From contig JAJDWX010000037.1 in the NCBI GenBank assembly GCA_022825385.1, positions 67,748 through 131,747 on the forward strand: a stretch of DNA of 64,000 nucleotides, in the 5' to 3' direction. Below the pieces are notes generated by a model. It searched no databases and was not told where the DNA came from. It saw only the letters and a list, made by a program, of their open reading frames with translations. Source of the DNA: Rhodothermales bacterium (GTDB lineage Bacteria; Bacteroidota; Rhodothermia; Rhodothermales; VXPQ01). Shown here piece by piece: positions 39,166-45,964 of this stretch. Made by a program: the position numbers and the translations under genes. Position 1 is the stretch's first letter. Each line of letters starts with the position of its first letter.

Positions 39166-39336
39166 CCCTTTTGGTGAAGATATGCCTAATACGACAAAAA
39201 AAACTTGTATATCCTTGCATATGTACTGCCGAATAGTTTCTTTGGAAACACTACGGTAATATCGTAGCAAGCACCTTGAATATGTACCCTGTTGGTACGC
39301 AAACCTGCCTCAGCCCACTTAAACCCCGTATTCACC

Positions 39337-40779
39337 ATGAAACGACTTCTACTAAGCCTTTTCGTACTCCTTCTTGCTCCTGCGACGGCGTTGGGGCAAT
39401 GGACTTATTCGTCCGATGTTTCGCTTGCTATTCATGGTTCCTTGTCCCATTCTTCGGGCATGCATGGCGTCGCCTTTGATCCCGACGGCAAGTTATGGGT
39501 ACAGTCGTACTATCCTACGGATAGCGTAATGGTGCCTCAGTTGGAAAACGACTATGGAGACAGTTACGCCATTCACGTATTCAATGCGGACGGTACGCAG
39601 GCGGACTTCTCTCCCATAAAGTTCGCAATGTCCGCCGATGGCATGATCGCGGATACGCTGGGCGCTTCCTGGGACGGCAGCGAATGGCAGAGCGGCCATG
39701 CTACTTCAGGCGGGCGCGGTATTACCGTGGACATGGAAGGCAACATCCTTGCGTCGCAGTACAGAACGCTGTACAAGTTCGATTACAAAACGGGCGCTGC
39801 GTTGGCCAAGAACGATTTTACGAGCTATCCGGCAGGCGCCAGCGGGCTCACCAAGCCTGCTGCGGGCGGCAATAACGTGTTCGTATCCTTTGTTGTCGCT
39901 GGCGCTAACGGGAGGGGAGTCCTGGTGTTGAATAAGGATGATCTGTCCGTCGAGTCCACCATTGGGAATGCGGATGGCACGGTTCCGGGTTTGTCTCGCA
40001 GCCTTGAGGTGTCGGCAGACGGTCATCGCGTTTTCTGGCCGATGTTTCTTACCCAGGCTATTGTGGAGTATGCCCGTCCGGATGAATTCTCGGATTACGA
40101 TTCTGTAGGCGTAGTGATTTCGGGCGTCGAGGGCGAGTCGATGACCCGTAGCCCGGCCGGGCACCTTTGGGTAGGTTCCGGCTCGACTCGGGATCTGAAT
40201 ATGCCCACATACGACCCTGACAATGTGCTCGAAACGTCCTGGGAGCCCAAGACCCATTACGCGTTCGACATGGCGGACCTTAAGCCTGACATGGTCCCCG
40301 TTGCCAAAGACCATATCACATGGCATGCAAGCGATAGCGCGGTCGATGACGATGGCAGCGGGTTTCCCAGAGGCATTGCTTTCTCGCCGGATGGGAAGAC
40401 GGTGGCTCTCGCTCAGTTTACCGGTGCTCCGCCCCTGATCCGGGTATATACGGGCATGACGACAACCAGCGCGGAAGACGAGCCGTTCGAATTGCCCGAA
40501 CAGTTCGTGCTCCACCAGAATTACCCGAATCCGTTCAATCCCTCCACGATGATCGAGTATGAGGTAATGGAGGCTGCGCCGGTTACGGTCCGCATATACG
40601 ATACGCTGGGTCGCGTCGTATCTACGTTGGTAAACGGGGCGATGCAGCAGCCTGGAACGTACAGCGTACAGTGGAATGGCCGTACGTCGTCTGGCGGGCA
40701 GTTGGCAAGCGGCATGTATTTCTACTCGCTGGAGACGCCGACCTTCCGTCAGGTCCGGCAGATGGCGCTGGTGAAGTAA
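39337..40779 (+). CDS. Exported beta-propeller-like protein with C-terminal sorting domain
   Basis: ATG 39337 is chosen because it opens a signal peptide (MKRLLLSLFVLLLAPATALG); an upstream start would add 15 unrelated residues. Product is 480 residues. Repeats resembling NHL/SMP-30 blades include GMHGVAFDPDGKLWVQSYYP, GRGITVDMEGNILASQYRTL, SRSLEVSADGHRVFWPM and PRGIAFSPDGKTVALAQF. The sorting domain is canonical (HQNYPNPFNPSTMIEYEV, ending RQMALVK). It has its own spacer (39166-39336), with a weak CTACG/CGTAG inverted repeat at 39251-39267, and its own terminator, so it seems monocistronic. Function unknown; possibly a secreted lactonase-like or binding protein. Confidence 0.86.
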   Translation: MKRLLLSLFVLLLAPATALGQWTYSSDVSLAIHGSLSHSSGMHGVAFDPDGKLWVQSYYPTDSVMVPQLENDYGDSYAIHVFNADGTQADFSPIKFAMSADGMIADTLGASWDGSEWQSGHATSGGRGITVDMEGNILASQYRTLYKFDYKTGAALAKNDFTSYPAGASGLTKPAAGGNNVFVSFVVAGANGRGVLVLNKDDLSVESTIGNADGTVPGLSRSLEVSADGHRVFWPMFLTQAIVEYARPDEFSDYDSVGVVISGVEGESMTRSPAGHLWVGSGSTRDLNMPTYDPDNVLETSWEPKTHYAFDMADLKPDMVPVAKDHITWHASDSAVDDDGSGFPRGIAFSPDGKTVALAQFTGAPPLIRVYTGMTTTSAEDEPFELPEQFVLHQNYPNPFNPSTMIEYEVMEAAPVTVRIYDTLGRVVSTLVNGAMQQPGTYSVQWNGRTSSGGQLASGMYFYSLETPTFRQVRQMALVK

Positions 40780-40824
40780 CTGTCCGGCTTTGCAGACGGC
40801 CTCGTCCGTTTCGCAAGAACAGGG

Positions 40825-40857
40825 AAGGGCCCTTCCTCGGAAGAGGGAGGGCCTTTT
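40825..40857 (+). terminator. Intrinsic terminator after the propeller gene
   Basis: GGCCCTTCC (40828-40836) pairs with GGGAGGGCC (40845-40853), with one G-T wobble, and is followed by TTTT. It lies 46 bases past the stop at 40779 and separates this gene from the convergent small-gene cluster on the minus strand. Confidence 0.75.
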
Positions 40858-40927
40858 GCTTGTTGCTTATCGGGAATTACAGCCCATTGCCAGGAAGGCG
40901 CTCCCGGCCTGAAATCTCCTCAAGGAT

Positions 40928-41182
40928 TTACCCTATCCAGAGGCCCAGCACGGTGACGGACAAGGCGGCAAGGGCGATGCCCGTTCCGACGACCCAGCAA
41001 GTAATTGCGAATTTCGCCGCGCTGATTTCGCTGCGCACGGCACTTATTTCGCTTCGTACGGCGCTGATTTCGCTGCGCACGAAGTCTTTCGTTGCGACTT
41101 CGTCGTACTGTTTTTCGACGGCGGACGCAATGACCCTGGCGTGCGCTTCGGCGTGTTTTTTATCGATGCCTGCGGCGGTCAT
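40928..41182 (-). CDS. Small tail-anchored coiled-coil protein (DUF1640/CCDC90-like), copy A
   Basis: An 84-residue protein. The N-terminal helix GIDKKHAEAHARVIASAVEK, then EVATKDFVRSEIS, is the pattern of the DUF1640 (CCDC90-like) group. It is followed by three VRSEISA-type heptads and a single C-terminal membrane segment (CWVVGTGIALAALSVTVLGL, then WIG). It is nearly identical to the protein at 41949-42191, from which it differs mainly by two extra heptads and a different N-terminal few residues. The shared tail also ends the gene at 41189-41716. Function of the family in bacteria is unknown. It is the most downstream of three minus-strand genes. Confidence 0.8.
   Translation of the reverse strand: MTAAGIDKKHAEAHARVIASAVEKQYDEVATKDFVRSEISAVRSEISAVRSEISAAKFAITCWVVGTGIALAALSVTVLGLWIG
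41021..41083. repeat. Three tandem 21-bp units encoding heptads
   Basis: Units 41021-41041, 41042-41062 and 41063-41083 each encode the seven residues VRSEISA (minus strand). The paralogue at 41949-42191 has one unit, so the array has expanded or contracted by whole heptads and keeps the coiled-coil phase. Units 1 and 3 are almost identical; unit 2 has synonymous changes. Confidence 0.8.
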
Positions 41183-41188
41183 AAGATT

Positions 41189-41716
41189 TCACCCTTTCCA
41201 GAGGCCCAGCACGGCAATAACCAGGCCTGCAACAGCAATGCCCGTTCCGATAGTCCAACGGATTTGTTTGTCGAACTTCTCCGCAATGGTCGTTTCCATT
41301 TTACCGAATCGCTCCGCTATCGTTGTGTCCACTTCCCCGAATTTTTTCGAAAGCGTTGTATCCACCTCGCCGAATTTTTCGGCCAGCGCTGTGTTCTGCT
41401 TGTCGAATTTTTCGGCGATGGTCGTTTCCATTTTGCCGAATCGCTCGGCAATCACTGTGTTTTGCCTGCCAAATTGCTCGGCAATTGCTGCGTTCTGCTT
41501 GTCGAATCTTTCCGCAATCGCTGTTTCAACCTTGCCAAATCGTTCGGCAATCGCTGTGTCCTGTCTGCCGAATTTCTCTGCAAGGACTGTATTCTGCCTG
41601 CCGAATTGCTCCGCAAGCTCGGTGCGGACGTCGCCTGTTTCGGCGCGTACTTCAGCGCGGACAAAGTCAGAAACGGGAATCGTCGGGTTGTCCGTTTTTC
41701 CGGGTTCCTTCGCCAT
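41189..41716 (-). CDS. Tail-anchored hendecad coiled-coil protein
   Basis: ATG 41716 is chosen because a good ribosome site (GAGGTGGAG) precedes it; the longer frame from 41914 adds 66 low-complexity residues across a conserved hairpin. Product is 175 residues. Residues 35-151 are ten 11-residue repeats of the pattern AE[KRQ]F[GD][KR]xxTxI plus a partial eleventh, which predicts a long, nearly straight or right-handed coiled coil. Residues 152-175 are one membrane helix (RWTIGTGIAVAGLVIAVLGL, then WKG), homologous to the tails of both neighbours. It is expected as a rod held by its C terminus in the inner membrane, probably oligomeric. No family was recognised beyond the DUF1640-like tail. 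Confidence 0.8.
   Translation of the reverse strand: MAKEPGKTDNPTIPVSDFVRAEVRAETGDVRTELAEQFGRQNTVLAEKFGRQDTAIAERFGKVETAIAERFDKQNAAIAEQFGRQNTVIAERFGKMETTIAEKFDKQNTALAEKFGEVDTTLSKKFGEVDTTIAERFGKMETTIAEKFDKQIRWTIGTGIAVAGLVIAVLGLWKG
41264..41614. repeat. 33-bp tandem coding repeats (hendecads)
   Basis: Ten complete 33-bp units plus 21 bp encode the 11-residue repeats of the gene above. Third positions vary between units, so selection seems to hold the protein pattern rather than recent DNA duplication. Confidence 0.85.
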
Positions 41717-41870
41717 GTTCTCCACCTCTTTGAGGATTTGCGTTTTTGATGTACGCTCGTCAGGGTCGGGCGTGTTCCGCGTTCGCCGCGTTCCCGCGCC
41801 GTGTGCGGGGTTCTGAAGGGCTTGTCTGGTTTCCGGCATATCGCAATCGTTGTTTGGGGTTGTTCCTGTA

Positions 41871-41902
41871 GCGTCGGCGGAGCCATTTCGCCCCGCCGTC
41901 GC
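41871..41902. promoter_or_regulatory. Conserved hairpin upstream of the hendecad gene
   Basis: GCGTCGGCGGAGC (41871-41883) pairs with GCCCCGCCGTCGC (41890-41902), two mismatches in 13. The same block, followed by CCCCNATAGAC and then AATATACCCTT, recurs at 42282-42305 before the next small gene. It lies about 155-186 bases upstream of the start at 41716 on the minus strand. Confidence 0.5.
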
Positions 41903-41948
41903 CCCCATAGACAAATTGCTAACCGGAATATACCCTTCGCGAGAATAT

Positions 41949-42191
41949 TTATCCTATCCAGAGACCCAGCACGGTTACGGACAAGGCGCCAAGGGCGATG
42001 CCCGTTCCGACGACCCAGCAAATAATGGTGAATTTCGCCGCGCTGATTTCGCTGCGCACGAAGTCTTTCGTCGCGACTTCGTCGTACTGTTTTTCGACGG
42101 CGGACGCAATGACCCTGGCGTGCGCTTCGGCGTGTTTTTTATCGATGCCTGCGGCGGCGAGGTCTGCGGCCATGGATAGGGTGTCCATCAT
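41949..42191 (-). CDS. Small tail-anchored coiled-coil protein (DUF1640/CCDC90-like), copy B
   Basis: An 80-residue protein, first of the three tandem minus-strand genes. It reads MMDTLSMAADLAAAGIDKKH, then AEAHARVIASAVEKQYDEVA and TKDFVRSEISAAK, then one C-terminal membrane helix (CWVVGTGIALGALSVTVLGL, WIG). The Ala/Gly-rich N terminus with AGIDKKHAEAHA is the typical DUF1640 opening. DNA is over 90% identical by eye to 40928-41182 through most of the length, so one arose by duplication. The repeated hairpin block at 42282-42305 lies about 90 bases upstream. Expected to form membrane-anchored oligomers; role unknown. Confidence 0.8.
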   Translation of the reverse strand: MMDTLSMAADLAAAGIDKKHAEAHARVIASAVEKQYDEVATKDFVRSEISAAKFTIICWVVGTGIALGALSVTVLGLWIG

Positions 42192-42281: not shown

Positions 42282-42305
42282 CGGCGGAGCCATTTTGCCC
42301 CGCCG
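42282..42305. promoter_or_regulatory. Second copy of the conserved hairpin block
   Basis: CGGCGGAGC (42282-42290) pairs with GCCCCGCCG (42297-42305), one mismatch, followed by TCGCCCCTATAGAC and further on AATATACCCTT, as at 41871-41940. It lies in the 281-base gap 42192-42472, upstream of the gene starting at 42191. Confidence 0.5.
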
Positions 42306-42374
42306 TCGCCCCTATAGACCCAGGAATGACCGAAATATACCCTTGGCCAGAAAAATTTTCTCCGCCAAATCCTG

Positions 42375-42472: not shown

Positions 42473-45400
42473 TCACCATTCCCTTGCTACGGAAACGCCC
42501 GCGCTATTTGCGCCTCCGGTCAGTTTCGCCCGTAGCGCGCCTGCTTTGTGCAGCGTTCGGTCCACGGCCAGCGTAATGCGCCGCCGCCCCGCCTCGGCGG
42601 CGAATTCGATCCGCCCTTCGGCGAGAGACGCGGGCTGTCCGTCTACCCAGATCGCAACGCCTTCCGTCTGCCCGCCGGGGATTTCCACGACCAGGGCGAC
42701 GGGGCCGGGCGCTTCGACGTCTACTTCGAAGTACGCCATGCTGTATCCGGCGGCTTCGGGCAGTTCCGCGAGCGGCAAATTCCCCGCTACGGCGCTGTGC
42801 ATGGGCGTCCAGGCCACGCTTTCTTCGGCAACGGCGAATTCGGGCCCGGCCTGCCTTATTTCCTTGATCGCGGCGTCGGATGGCCGCCATACCCGCCATC
42901 TCCGCACCATTTGCTCCCCATCCGTCGAGGCGGGCGCCCGATACGGCCCTTCTTCGCCCAGCGCGGACAAAAAGGCCACCAGGTCCACGAACTCGTCCCG
43001 GTCGAGCGAGGCGGTGAGGCCCGCCGGCATGAGCGATCCCGGAACGATTTCCCGCGTCCGGATGCGGCTTTTCGGAATGCGCTCCACGTTGCCCGCCGCG
43101 TCGCGCACCAGCACGTCCGCCTCCGTTTCGCCCATAAGATTTCCCGTCGCAATGCGCCCGTCCGTATGTACGATGCGAATGAGGGCATACCCGTCCTTGA
43201 CGGCCTGTTCTGGCTTCAGGAGGGATTCCGTAAGATAATCTATGGGGGCCGTAACCCCAATCGTCGACAAATCCGGCCCCGATAGTCCGCCCGCCCCGCC
43301 AATGACATGGCACCGGGCGCATTGCAGCCGCCCGTAGAGCGCTTCGCCGCGGGCAGGGTCGCCCGTCCCTTTCACTTCGTAATGGAGGCGTTGCAATGCC
43401 CAGCCGTCCATGTCTGGATCGACGCGGGGGGCCGTGGAGGTCGCGCCCGAAGCCCGAAACGCATCCCGAAGCGGCTCGTAACTGCGGTTGCGTCCGCGAA
43501 TCCGATCCAGCCCTTTTTGCGCGAATGCCGCCGGGACGCCGTGCGCGCGCAAGGCGTCGGTCAGCGCGTCCCGTCCGCCGTCCTGCATGAGAAACGCATT
43601 GAAGAGCGGCCAGGGATCCATATCGCCCGCCTCGCCATGCGCGTCCTGCAAAAAAGCCAGGGCGATGGGCGCGGCTTGCTCCATATCGACGGCGGGCAGG
43701 AGCCGGGCCGCTTCCAGTCGCAAGGCCACAGATCGATCCGCACGATCTGCGCGATCCGCATTTTCCGCAATGGCCTGCAAGGCGGCGAAACTGGCGCTGT
43801 CTCCAAGCGCGGCCAGCCCTTCCAGACCGGCTTCTTGCAAGGATTCGTCTGCTTCCTCCACGAGGTTTGTCAGGGTGGTTCGCAGGGTCGCTTCGCCCCA
43901 GGACCCGGCCAGGCGGGCCGCCCGCCCCCTGATTTCCGGGTCCTCGCGTTCGAGCAGCGTCCGCAGCCGGTCGGCCACATCGGCGGGACGGCGGGCCTCG
44001 TCTTCCGCGGCCGCCAGCAAGGCGTCGAGATGTTCGAGCGCGCCGTTCTCGCCCCGCGTTTCGTCCTGCGCCGCAAGGTCGAGGAGCGCTTCCATGGCCT
44101 CGGCGTTCCCGCGTTCCGCAAGGGTTTCCAGTACGCTGGCCGCCTGGTCTTCGGGAATATTTCCGCGGGTGTAATGCGCTGCAAGGCGGGCTGTCGCTTC
44201 AGGCGCTTCCGCCGCCTGCAAGGCAAAGGTTATGCGTCGGATATTGTCGCCGAAGAACGTGCTGTCCCGCTCGAAACGCGGCGTCCAGAAGGGCTCCAGC
44301 TGCCGGATGGCATGCCACAGGGCGTAATCCAGAAATTCGTCCATGGGATGGTCGAGCGCCCGCAACGCGACGTTCGCGGCGCGGGCCCCGGCTTCCGCGC
44401 CGCCGACCGTACCCCGTTCGCCCAGCGCGTGCACGGCCTCCCGGCGTACGCGCGGGTGTTCGTCGTCGATCAACGCGGCCAGCAAGGCGTCCGTATCGGG
44501 AAGCAGGTCTGGAAAATGTCCCAGTACGCGCACGGCGGCGGCGCGCGCCCGATGATCCGGGAGTCCAAGCGCTTCGCGGAGCGCGTCCGCGTTCATTCGC
44601 CCGATGGCCTGATAGGTCCAGAGCATCTGAAGCAATGCGTGGGCGGCGTCCGGCGCGCTTCGATCCAGGCGGGCCACTTCTGCGTCCAGCGCCGGGCCGA
44701 CCGCCTCCGCGCCGCGTTCCCTGAGCAGGCGCTTCGCCTGCCGCCGCGTCCAGGCTTCCGGCAAGCGAAGGGCCGCAAGCAAGTCTTCTGTCGAGGCGTC
44801 GCGCAGGGTTGGCGCCTCCACGAGCGGCCGCCCCGTAGCCGTAATGCGCCAGATGCGTCCATGCCGGTGGTCCCGCCGCGGATCGCGAAAATCCACTTCT
44901 CCATGCTGTATGATCGGGTTGTACCAGTCGGCCAGATACAGCGCGCCGTCCGGCCCCACGTTCAGGTCCACGGGCCGGAACGCCACATGGTCCGTCCAGA
45001 TCAAATCCTCCTGTTCCCCGGACGAAAAACCGCTGCCGTCCTCGGCCAGCGCAAACCGTTTGACCCGGTTCGCCCGAAAGTCGCTGGCGATGAGTTGTCC
45101 GCCGAGCGAGTCGGGAAAATGCCTGCCGGAGAGGAGCGCCAGCCCGGCGTATTTGGGATGCTGCGGATTCAGGCCCGTAAGCGTCCGGGCGGCTCCGTAG
45201 GCGGGCGCGTACGCCGCATGGGGAAAAATGAAATACACGCCCTCGCTGCCTGCGCCATCCGTAGCGAACGATTGCCCCCACCGGTCGAAATCGAATCCCC
45301 ACGAGTTCCACATGCCGCGCGCCAGCACGTTCAGTTTCAAGGCGCGGGGGTCGAATTGCCAGATTCCGCCTTGCTTGAGGCGCCGCACCCCCCAGGGCGT

Positions 45401-45964
45401 TTCGATATGGCTGTAGATATAAACGGACTGATTCAGATAAAAAAGGCCGTCGGGACCCCACAAAAAGCGGTGAATGATATGGTGGGTGTCGTCCGCGCCG
45501 AATCCCGAAAGAACCACGCGCCGCCGGTCTGCCCGCCCGTCTCCGTCTGTGTCCCGAAGGTGCAGGATTTCCGTGGAATTGGCCACGTATACGCCGCCGT
45601 CGCCGGGCAGTACGCCCGTGGGCGTCAGCAAACTGTCGGCGAACAGGATGGAGCGATCCGCCGCGCCGTCGCCGTCCGTATCCTCCAGCATGAAAATCTT
45701 GTCGTTGGCTGCTTGTCCCGCGACGGGCTGCGGGTAGGAGGCGCTGGTCGCCACGAACAATCTCCCCTGTTCGTCCCACGCCATCTGGATGGGCGGATCG
45801 ATCATGGGATCCGCGGCGAAAAGGTTGATTTCGAAGCCTTCCGCTACGTGCAGCGCAGCCATCTGGGCCGCCGGATCGGGGTCCGGGATATTGGTCAGCG
45901 TGGATTGCGCGGCCAGCCAAGGAGCGACCGTCAGGCTGGCTATGGCCAGAATGCATCGTCGCAT
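42473..45964 (-). CDS. Exported membrane-bound-dehydrogenase-type protein with HEAT repeats and cytochrome c domain
   Basis: A 1163-residue protein of planctomycete-type architecture. Signal peptide (residues 1-19, ...PWLAAQS). The N-terminal propeller (about 40-400) resembles TIGR02604/PVC dehydrogenase domains: FEINLFAADPMIDPPIQMAW, MLEDTDGDGAADRSILFAD, WNSWGFDFDRWGQSFATDG and LADWYNPIIQHG. HEAT-like helical repeats span about 410-820. The cytochrome c domain has CARCHVIGGAGGLSGPDLS and a DRDEFVDLVAFLSALG tail. A C-terminal beta domain ends the protein. The single haem motif CARCH is intact. It is one base from the SGNH hydrolase gene upstream, so they form an operon. Expected to oxidise a sugar or sugar derivative in the periplasm; substrate not known. 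Confidence 0.87.
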   Translation of the reverse strand: MRRCILAIASLTVAPWLAAQSTLTNIPDPDPAAQMAALHVAEGFEINLFAADPMIDPPIQMAWDEQGRLFVATSASYPQPVAGQAANDKIFMLEDTDGDGAADRSILFADSLLTPTGVLPGDGGVYVANSTEILHLRDTDGDGRADRRRVVLSGFGADDTHHIIHRFLWGPDGLFYLNQSVYIYSHIETPWGVRRLKQGGIWQFDPRALKLNVLARGMWNSWGFDFDRWGQSFATDGAGSEGVYFIFPHAAYAPAYGAARTLTGLNPQHPKYAGLALLSGRHFPDSLGGQLIASDFRANRVKRFALAEDGSGFSSGEQEDLIWTDHVAFRPVDLNVGPDGALYLADWYNPIIQHGEVDFRDPRRDHRHGRIWRITATGRPLVEAPTLRDASTEDLLAALRLPEAWTRRQAKRLLRERGAEAVGPALDAEVARLDRSAPDAAHALLQMLWTYQAIGRMNADALREALGLPDHRARAAAVRVLGHFPDLLPDTDALLAALIDDEHPRVRREAVHALGERGTVGGAEAGARAANVALRALDHPMDEFLDYALWHAIRQLEPFWTPRFERDSTFFGDNIRRITFALQAAEAPEATARLAAHYTRGNIPEDQAASVLETLAERGNAEAMEALLDLAAQDETRGENGALEHLDALLAAAEDEARRPADVADRLRTLLEREDPEIRGRAARLAGSWGEATLRTTLTNLVEEADESLQEAGLEGLAALGDSASFAALQAIAENADRADRADRSVALRLEAARLLPAVDMEQAAPIALAFLQDAHGEAGDMDPWPLFNAFLMQDGGRDALTDALRAHGVPAAFAQKGLDRIRGRNRSYEPLRDAFRASGATSTAPRVDPDMDGWALQRLHYEVKGTGDPARGEALYGRLQCARCHVIGGAGGLSGPDLSTIGVTAPIDYLTESLLKPEQAVKDGYALIRIVHTDGRIATGNLMGETEADVLVRDAAGNVERIPKSRIRTREIVPGSLMPAGLTASLDRDEFVDLVAFLSALGEEGPYRAPASTDGEQMVRRWRVWRPSDAAIKEIRQAGPEFAVAEESVAWTPMHSAVAGNLPLAELPEAAGYSMAYFEVDVEAPGPVALVVEIPGGQTEGVAIWVDGQPASLAEGRIEFAAEAGRRRITLAVDRTLHKAGALRAKLTGGANSAGVSVAREW

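Follow-up and report, generated by a model that had tools for sequence, protein, structure and literature searches.

Three small tandem genes, termed A, B and C, and duplicated leader blocks are found on the reverse strand of the window, i.e. the whole stretch of 64,000 nucleotides that was analysed (Table 1). The genome of the window is denoted G000 and its five congeners G001–G005, G001 being the sister genome. The trio is bordered on the upstream side by a gene for a 1163-aa protein on the same strand (42473–45964), and on the other side by a gene on the opposite strand (39292–40779), whose product ends with a likely secretion sorting domain. The start of C lies 6 nt past the end of B.

Re-reading of the sequence confirmed the three frames of the trio, the repeats and the leader duplication as real. 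The most likely start of B is the ATG at 41716 behind the SD-like GAGGTGGAG rather than an upstream TTG, since the matching leader of the C17 paralog comes immediately after an in-frame TGA. In comparison with G001, synonymous changes and codons with an amino-acid change number 9 and 6 in A, 7 and 1 in B, and 11 and 5 in C; with an assumed neutral synonymous share of 25%, all three frames are under purifying selection (p = 0.004, 0.0004 and 0.0003, respectively). A 381-aa open frame on the forward strand opposite B and C (40671–41816) most likely arises as a shadow of the repeats, which are rich in G+C. Rfam revealed no RNA family at the locus.

Table 1. Genes, protein segments and upstream elements of the A–B–C locus in window coordinates
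Feature	Position	Strand	Description
Leader block, first copy, upstream of A	42282..42352	-	hairpin at 42282-42310
Gene A	41949..42191	-	80 aa; head of CCDC90/DUF1640 type, neck with VATKDF, stalk of one heptad, membrane helix at the C-terminus
Beta-layer neck motif VATKDF of A	42060..42077	-	residues 39-44; same motif in C
Leader block, second copy, between A and the promoter-like element of B	41875..41945	-	hairpin at 41875-41903
Class-II promoter-like element GGAACA-N17-CGTACA upstream of B	41750..41778	-	33 nt before the ATG; G000:C39:109497-109525
Gene B	41189..41716	-	175 aa; headless, N-terminal neck-like motif, hendecad rod, C-terminal membrane helix
Neck-like motif VSDFVRAEV of B	41648..41674	-	residues 15-23; motif-level only
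Hendecad rod of B	41255..41617	-	11-residue repeats with the consensus IAERFGKQNTA, ten of them full and the eleventh partial
Gene C	40928..41182	-	84 aa; head (first ten residues missing), neck, stalk of three heptads, anchor

Protein architecture and leader blocks

Proteins A and C have a common architecture that includes a head of two short helices, the VATKDF neck, heptad units of the ISAVRSE type, of which A has one and C has three, and a membrane helix at the C-terminus. Each of the three proteins has one hydrophobic 19-mer, at its C-terminus and with a mean hydropathy of 2.0–2.1 (2.09 for the best 19 residues of A). The rod of B shows a lag-11 identity of 0.57, compared with a maximum of 0.17 among 2000 shuffles, and a hydrophobic period of 3.66, the ideal hendecad value being 3.667; this periodicity is far beyond chance. 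The partial eleventh repeat merges into the anchor. Matches of B to ParB, apolipoprotein, ZorA and other Pfam, NCBIfam and PADLOC models are far under the cut-offs and look like coiled-coil noise. AlphaFold predicts two short helices, a break at residues 34–41 and a helix at 42–79 for A (mean pLDDT 61, pTM 0.30), and a single helix at 20–174 for B (mean pLDDT 71, pTM 0.29). Both monomer models are weak, and low pTM values would be expected for isolated rods.

Alignment of the two family profiles, type A (A, C and relatives) and type B, by hhalign covered the anchor alone (probability 96.9, E 1.5e-10). At the neck position B contains SDFVRAEV, which has a motif-level likeness to the beta-layer neck and matches ATKDFVRSEI of A and C; B paralogs have ATQDFVRAEI and ATKDFV. 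We read these as a putative common neck core, as a motif match only. The tail anchors, the hendecad rod and the combination of a related anchor with rods that differ in length, all proposed in the initial annotation, are borne out, and its statement that B shares only the C-terminal helix with A and C is correct for the anchor and seems too narrow with respect to the neck motif.

The duplicated leader hairpin block that had also been described is present in two copies with 83% identity over 71 bp, and a genome-wide search that allowed up to three mismatches found no other copy of the hairpin. Compared with shuffled sequences, the second copy folds clearly better (z −3.7) and the first reaches only z −1.55. 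We rejected the hairpin as a conserved regulator, since it has only two copies in the genome, the first of them not significant, and one stem is partly broken in G001.

Relationship to CCDC90/DUF1640 proteins

In mitochondria, CCDC90/DUF1640 proteins act as organisers of inner-membrane complexes. A profile built from ten G000 proteins of type A, A and C included, matches the solved head–neck structure of human CCDC90B (PDB 6h9m) with E 2.3e-6 across head and neck. Against Pfam PF07798, A (E 4.6e-5, 23.8 bits) and C (E 5.2e-4, 20.4 bits) score below the cut-off of 33.5, as expected of short members, and their paralogs C4a and C49b score above it (44.0 and 39.7 bits); A and C are placed in CCDC90/DUF1640 by homology to these paralogs. 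On the sequence level, A and C are small CCDC90/DUF1640 proteins and distant relatives of mitochondrial MCUR1 and CCDC90B, in agreement with the DUF1640-like character ascribed to them initially. The score of B is 13.2 bits, and we do not claim its membership.

The VATKDF motif of A and C fits the beta-layer consensus [aliphatic]-A-T-K-[polar]-[DE] of DUF1640/DUF3782 (PMC4786415) at all positions except the last, which is F rather than D/E. The yeast proteins Put6 and Put7 form a hetero-oligomer with soluble domains facing the matrix (PMC7519068). DUF1640, whose bacterial relatives were called uncharacterised in the initial annotation, is not wholly so, as the neck has been described, the 6h9m structure solved and the Put6/Put7 hetero-oligomer reported. 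We found no report in the literature on the role of bacterial CCDC90/DUF1640 relatives.

The proteins described here resemble the known CCDC90/DUF1640 members (PF07798; MCUR1, CCDC90B, Put6/Put7) in having a head, an ATK beta-layer neck, a coiled-coil stalk and a C-terminal membrane helix, and differ from them by a head and stalk of much smaller size, a high copy number per genome, variable stalks of 7- and 11-residue units, headless hendecad paralogs and dedicated promoter-like elements. The family is a variant of this already known kind, newly seen here. DUF3782-type coiled coils, such as Tcar0761 of Thermosinus, have a similar ATK(polar)(DE) beta-layer and stalks built from short repeats; in contrast to the nonad repeats and internal beta-layers of Tcar0761, there is one neck N-terminal to a stalk of 7/11-residue units. 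Members of the LA_3696 family (NCBIfam NF047472) in a related genus of the order are also characterised by several copies per genome, a hendecad stalk and a C-terminal membrane helix, but their N-terminal head is unrelated: the LA_3696_Nterm domain has no match in A, B or C, and matches a protein of genome G007 with E 9e-18. One locus of that related genus (L056, 3672–7900) has three genes in tandem whose products each combine an LA_3696 head with a hendecad stalk and a C-terminal anchor, and several further copies are present in the genome.

Distribution of the family and its promoter-like elements

The genome of the window has about 12 type-A and 8 type-B genes, roughly 20 in total, that are scattered among unrelated genes. 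Type A was found in all five congeners (3 to 14 matches each) and type B only in G001; few other members of the order carry type A (2 of the 54 genomes sampled outside the genus). Most type-A genes stand apart from any type-B gene. The neighbours differ from paralog to paralog, with none common between copies, and give no functional clue. The minimal member (L013, 11652–12209) has 51 aa comprising a disordered-looking start, an ATQDFVRAEI neck, a short helix and the anchor; its protein is identical in G001, with five synonymous changes. At another locus (L019, 5027–7881), close to a type II methyltransferase, the modules occur in new combinations: a type-B rod, a rod anchored at its N-terminus and an ATKDFVRAEI protein with two anchors. 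The Erwinia tracheiphila plasmid pETR006-a also encodes a CCDC90 family protein (L121, 4989–5252), with a recombinase gene on one side and phage head genes on the other. Phage origin was rejected: a phage collection contained no match to A, and plasmids gave two weak matches.

Outside the window the trio was found only in G001, where the flanks are about 95% identical, the gene order is B-C-A, the stalk of A is longer and that of C shorter. The 93-base tail of C in the window has 4 differences to the tail of A in G001, 6 to that of C in G001 and 7 to that of A in the window; although the margin is small, this suggests recombination or conversion between copies. At the same site, ATK-neck rods of another type are present in G004 (two) and G003 (one), the latter also having a remnant tail of a decayed copy. 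In G002 and G005 there are no rods at the site, with the caveat that the far flanking gene differs in both as well. With the order permuted in G001 and the trio absent from the four other congeners, the trio is not a fixed unit. An operon-like system was rejected on the same grounds, and the proposal of a discrete undescribed system is not supported. A search for the same trio in other genomes, which had been suggested, succeeded in one congener, with permuted order, and failed in four. The conserved entity is the genus-wide dispersed family, of which the trio is one rearranging array.

These observations bear on the idea, put forward in the initial annotation, that A, B and C co-assemble, rods of different length being bundled via related anchors and necks into one scaffold of the locus. 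We consider it unlikely, since the hendecad stalk of B is unlike the heptad stalks of A and C in pitch and length, the trio is missing or permuted in the congeners and type-A genes mostly occur away from type B, even though the anchors are related, B and C nearly abut, the three genes also occur together in G001 and Put6/Put7 provide a precedent.

Two classes of promoter-like elements were found upstream of family genes. The class-I element is a 29-nt block, TGAAACAGAACGCCGAAAACGGTATATTA; in most of the type-A genes that have it, it lies 23 to 26 nt ahead of the start, and in two of them about 64 nt. In the six genus genomes, at up to three mismatches, all 18 matches are upstream of type-A genes (among them G000:C49:62782 in L018, sites on C4 and C12 of G000, and sites in congeners) and a reversed-pattern control gave 0; the element is absent upstream of A, B and C of the window. 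The class-II element, GGAACA-N17-CGTAYA, which we take to resemble ECF-type promoters, has 4 matches in G000 and 7 in G001. Ten of these 11 are upstream of type-A or type-B genes, B of the window included, and the eleventh precedes a small N-anchored rod. The other four genus genomes have two matches in total, both within coding frames, and the reversed control gave 4 in six genomes. Since the class-II pattern was derived from three leaders of the family that had already been seen, the matches at those leaders are not independent and the rest are. For both classes in G000 and G001, all 19 whole-genome matches precede genes of small membrane coiled-coil proteins (18 of the family and one N-anchored rod).

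As the class-II element precedes both A- and B-type genes, they share a promoter-like signature despite different spacers and proteins. The elements support joint expression of the whole family, judging from the upstream regions, and not of the trio alone; they may partly reflect shared descent of cassettes and not selection for co-regulation. In G001, one type-A gene (L132, 1434–1916) is preceded by a B-type leader that contains the class-II element, an apparent sign of module shuffling.

The family could alternatively comprise small accessory membrane proteins of anti-phage defence. IetAS genes (L018, 533–4138 and 4820–5738) lie directly upstream of two type-A genes, C49b and C49c, also in G001; the C7 genes adjoin a type II methyltransferase, an McrBC-like pair lies next to a related N-anchored rod, and a CCDC90 protein is found on the Erwinia phage-plasmid. 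However, the relative of C49b in G002, G003 and G004 has no IetAS nearby, none of the genes read around the trio is a defence gene, and PADLOC matches are of the coiled-coil kind for B and absent for A and C. This role is highly improbable and was rejected, as the IetAS linkage is not conserved.

Stalk length and possible function

Seven of ten ortholog pairs of G000 and G001 differ in length, with indels of 7, 7, 7, 11, 14, 22 and 40 residues, all made of 7- or 11-residue units (the last being 33+7). The indels are in the stalk only, and none was found in the head, neck or anchor among the ten pairs. The size of the units follows from slippage or recombination between repeats, and retained function would explain the confinement of change to the stalk.

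A nearly neutral cassette family, birth-and-death or semi-mobile, with tandems and length changes arising by recombination or slippage and no joint function, would account for the permuted block order and mosaic tails of G000 and G001, the unrelated neighbours of each copy and the decayed copy in G003. We find it doubtful, if somewhat less so than co-assembly, because A, B and C are under purifying selection, the head, neck and anchor have no indels while the stalks vary, the cis elements are dedicated and relatives are kept across the genus.

The explanation we favour, and consider probable, is that the family consists of rods of the CCDC90 (DUF1640) kind that are expressed together and act as spacers or scaffolds tethered to the membrane. 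A, B and C would be tail-anchored, probably trimeric coiled-coil membrane rods, presumably directed to the cytosol and assembled from modules that can be exchanged: a head, which is optional, a beta-layer neck that could set the oligomer, a stalk of 7-/11-residue units and a membrane helix at the C-terminus. With 1.5 angstrom per residue, the head would be held about 2 nm (A) or 4 nm (C) off the membrane, and the headless B would form a rod of about 18 nm. The genes would represent a fast birth-and-death family of dispersed single-gene cassettes, many of them behind one of two dedicated promoter-like elements, with stalk length altered through repeat gain and loss. Their products may serve as spacers or scaffolds by analogy with mitochondrial MCUR1 and Put6/Put7, and this analogy is distant. 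A still more specific version, in which about 20 rods of shuffled modules form a genus-specific regulon under two dedicated promoter types, mix with each other and set inner-membrane spacing by the adjustable stalk, appears to us less probable than any reading above except the defence role.

The lasting points are the change of stalks by whole repeat units between sister species and the two family-specific promoter-like elements. A genus with many copies, common promoter-like elements and length variants in sister species offers a ready comparison of the roles of head, neck and stalk length. One type-A protein, C4b (L061, 1070–1909), has an odd non-repeat insert in the stalk, TSGDTRNLRPVVPGKTGCPIEG, which is kept in G001 and is perhaps an old frameshifted repeat.
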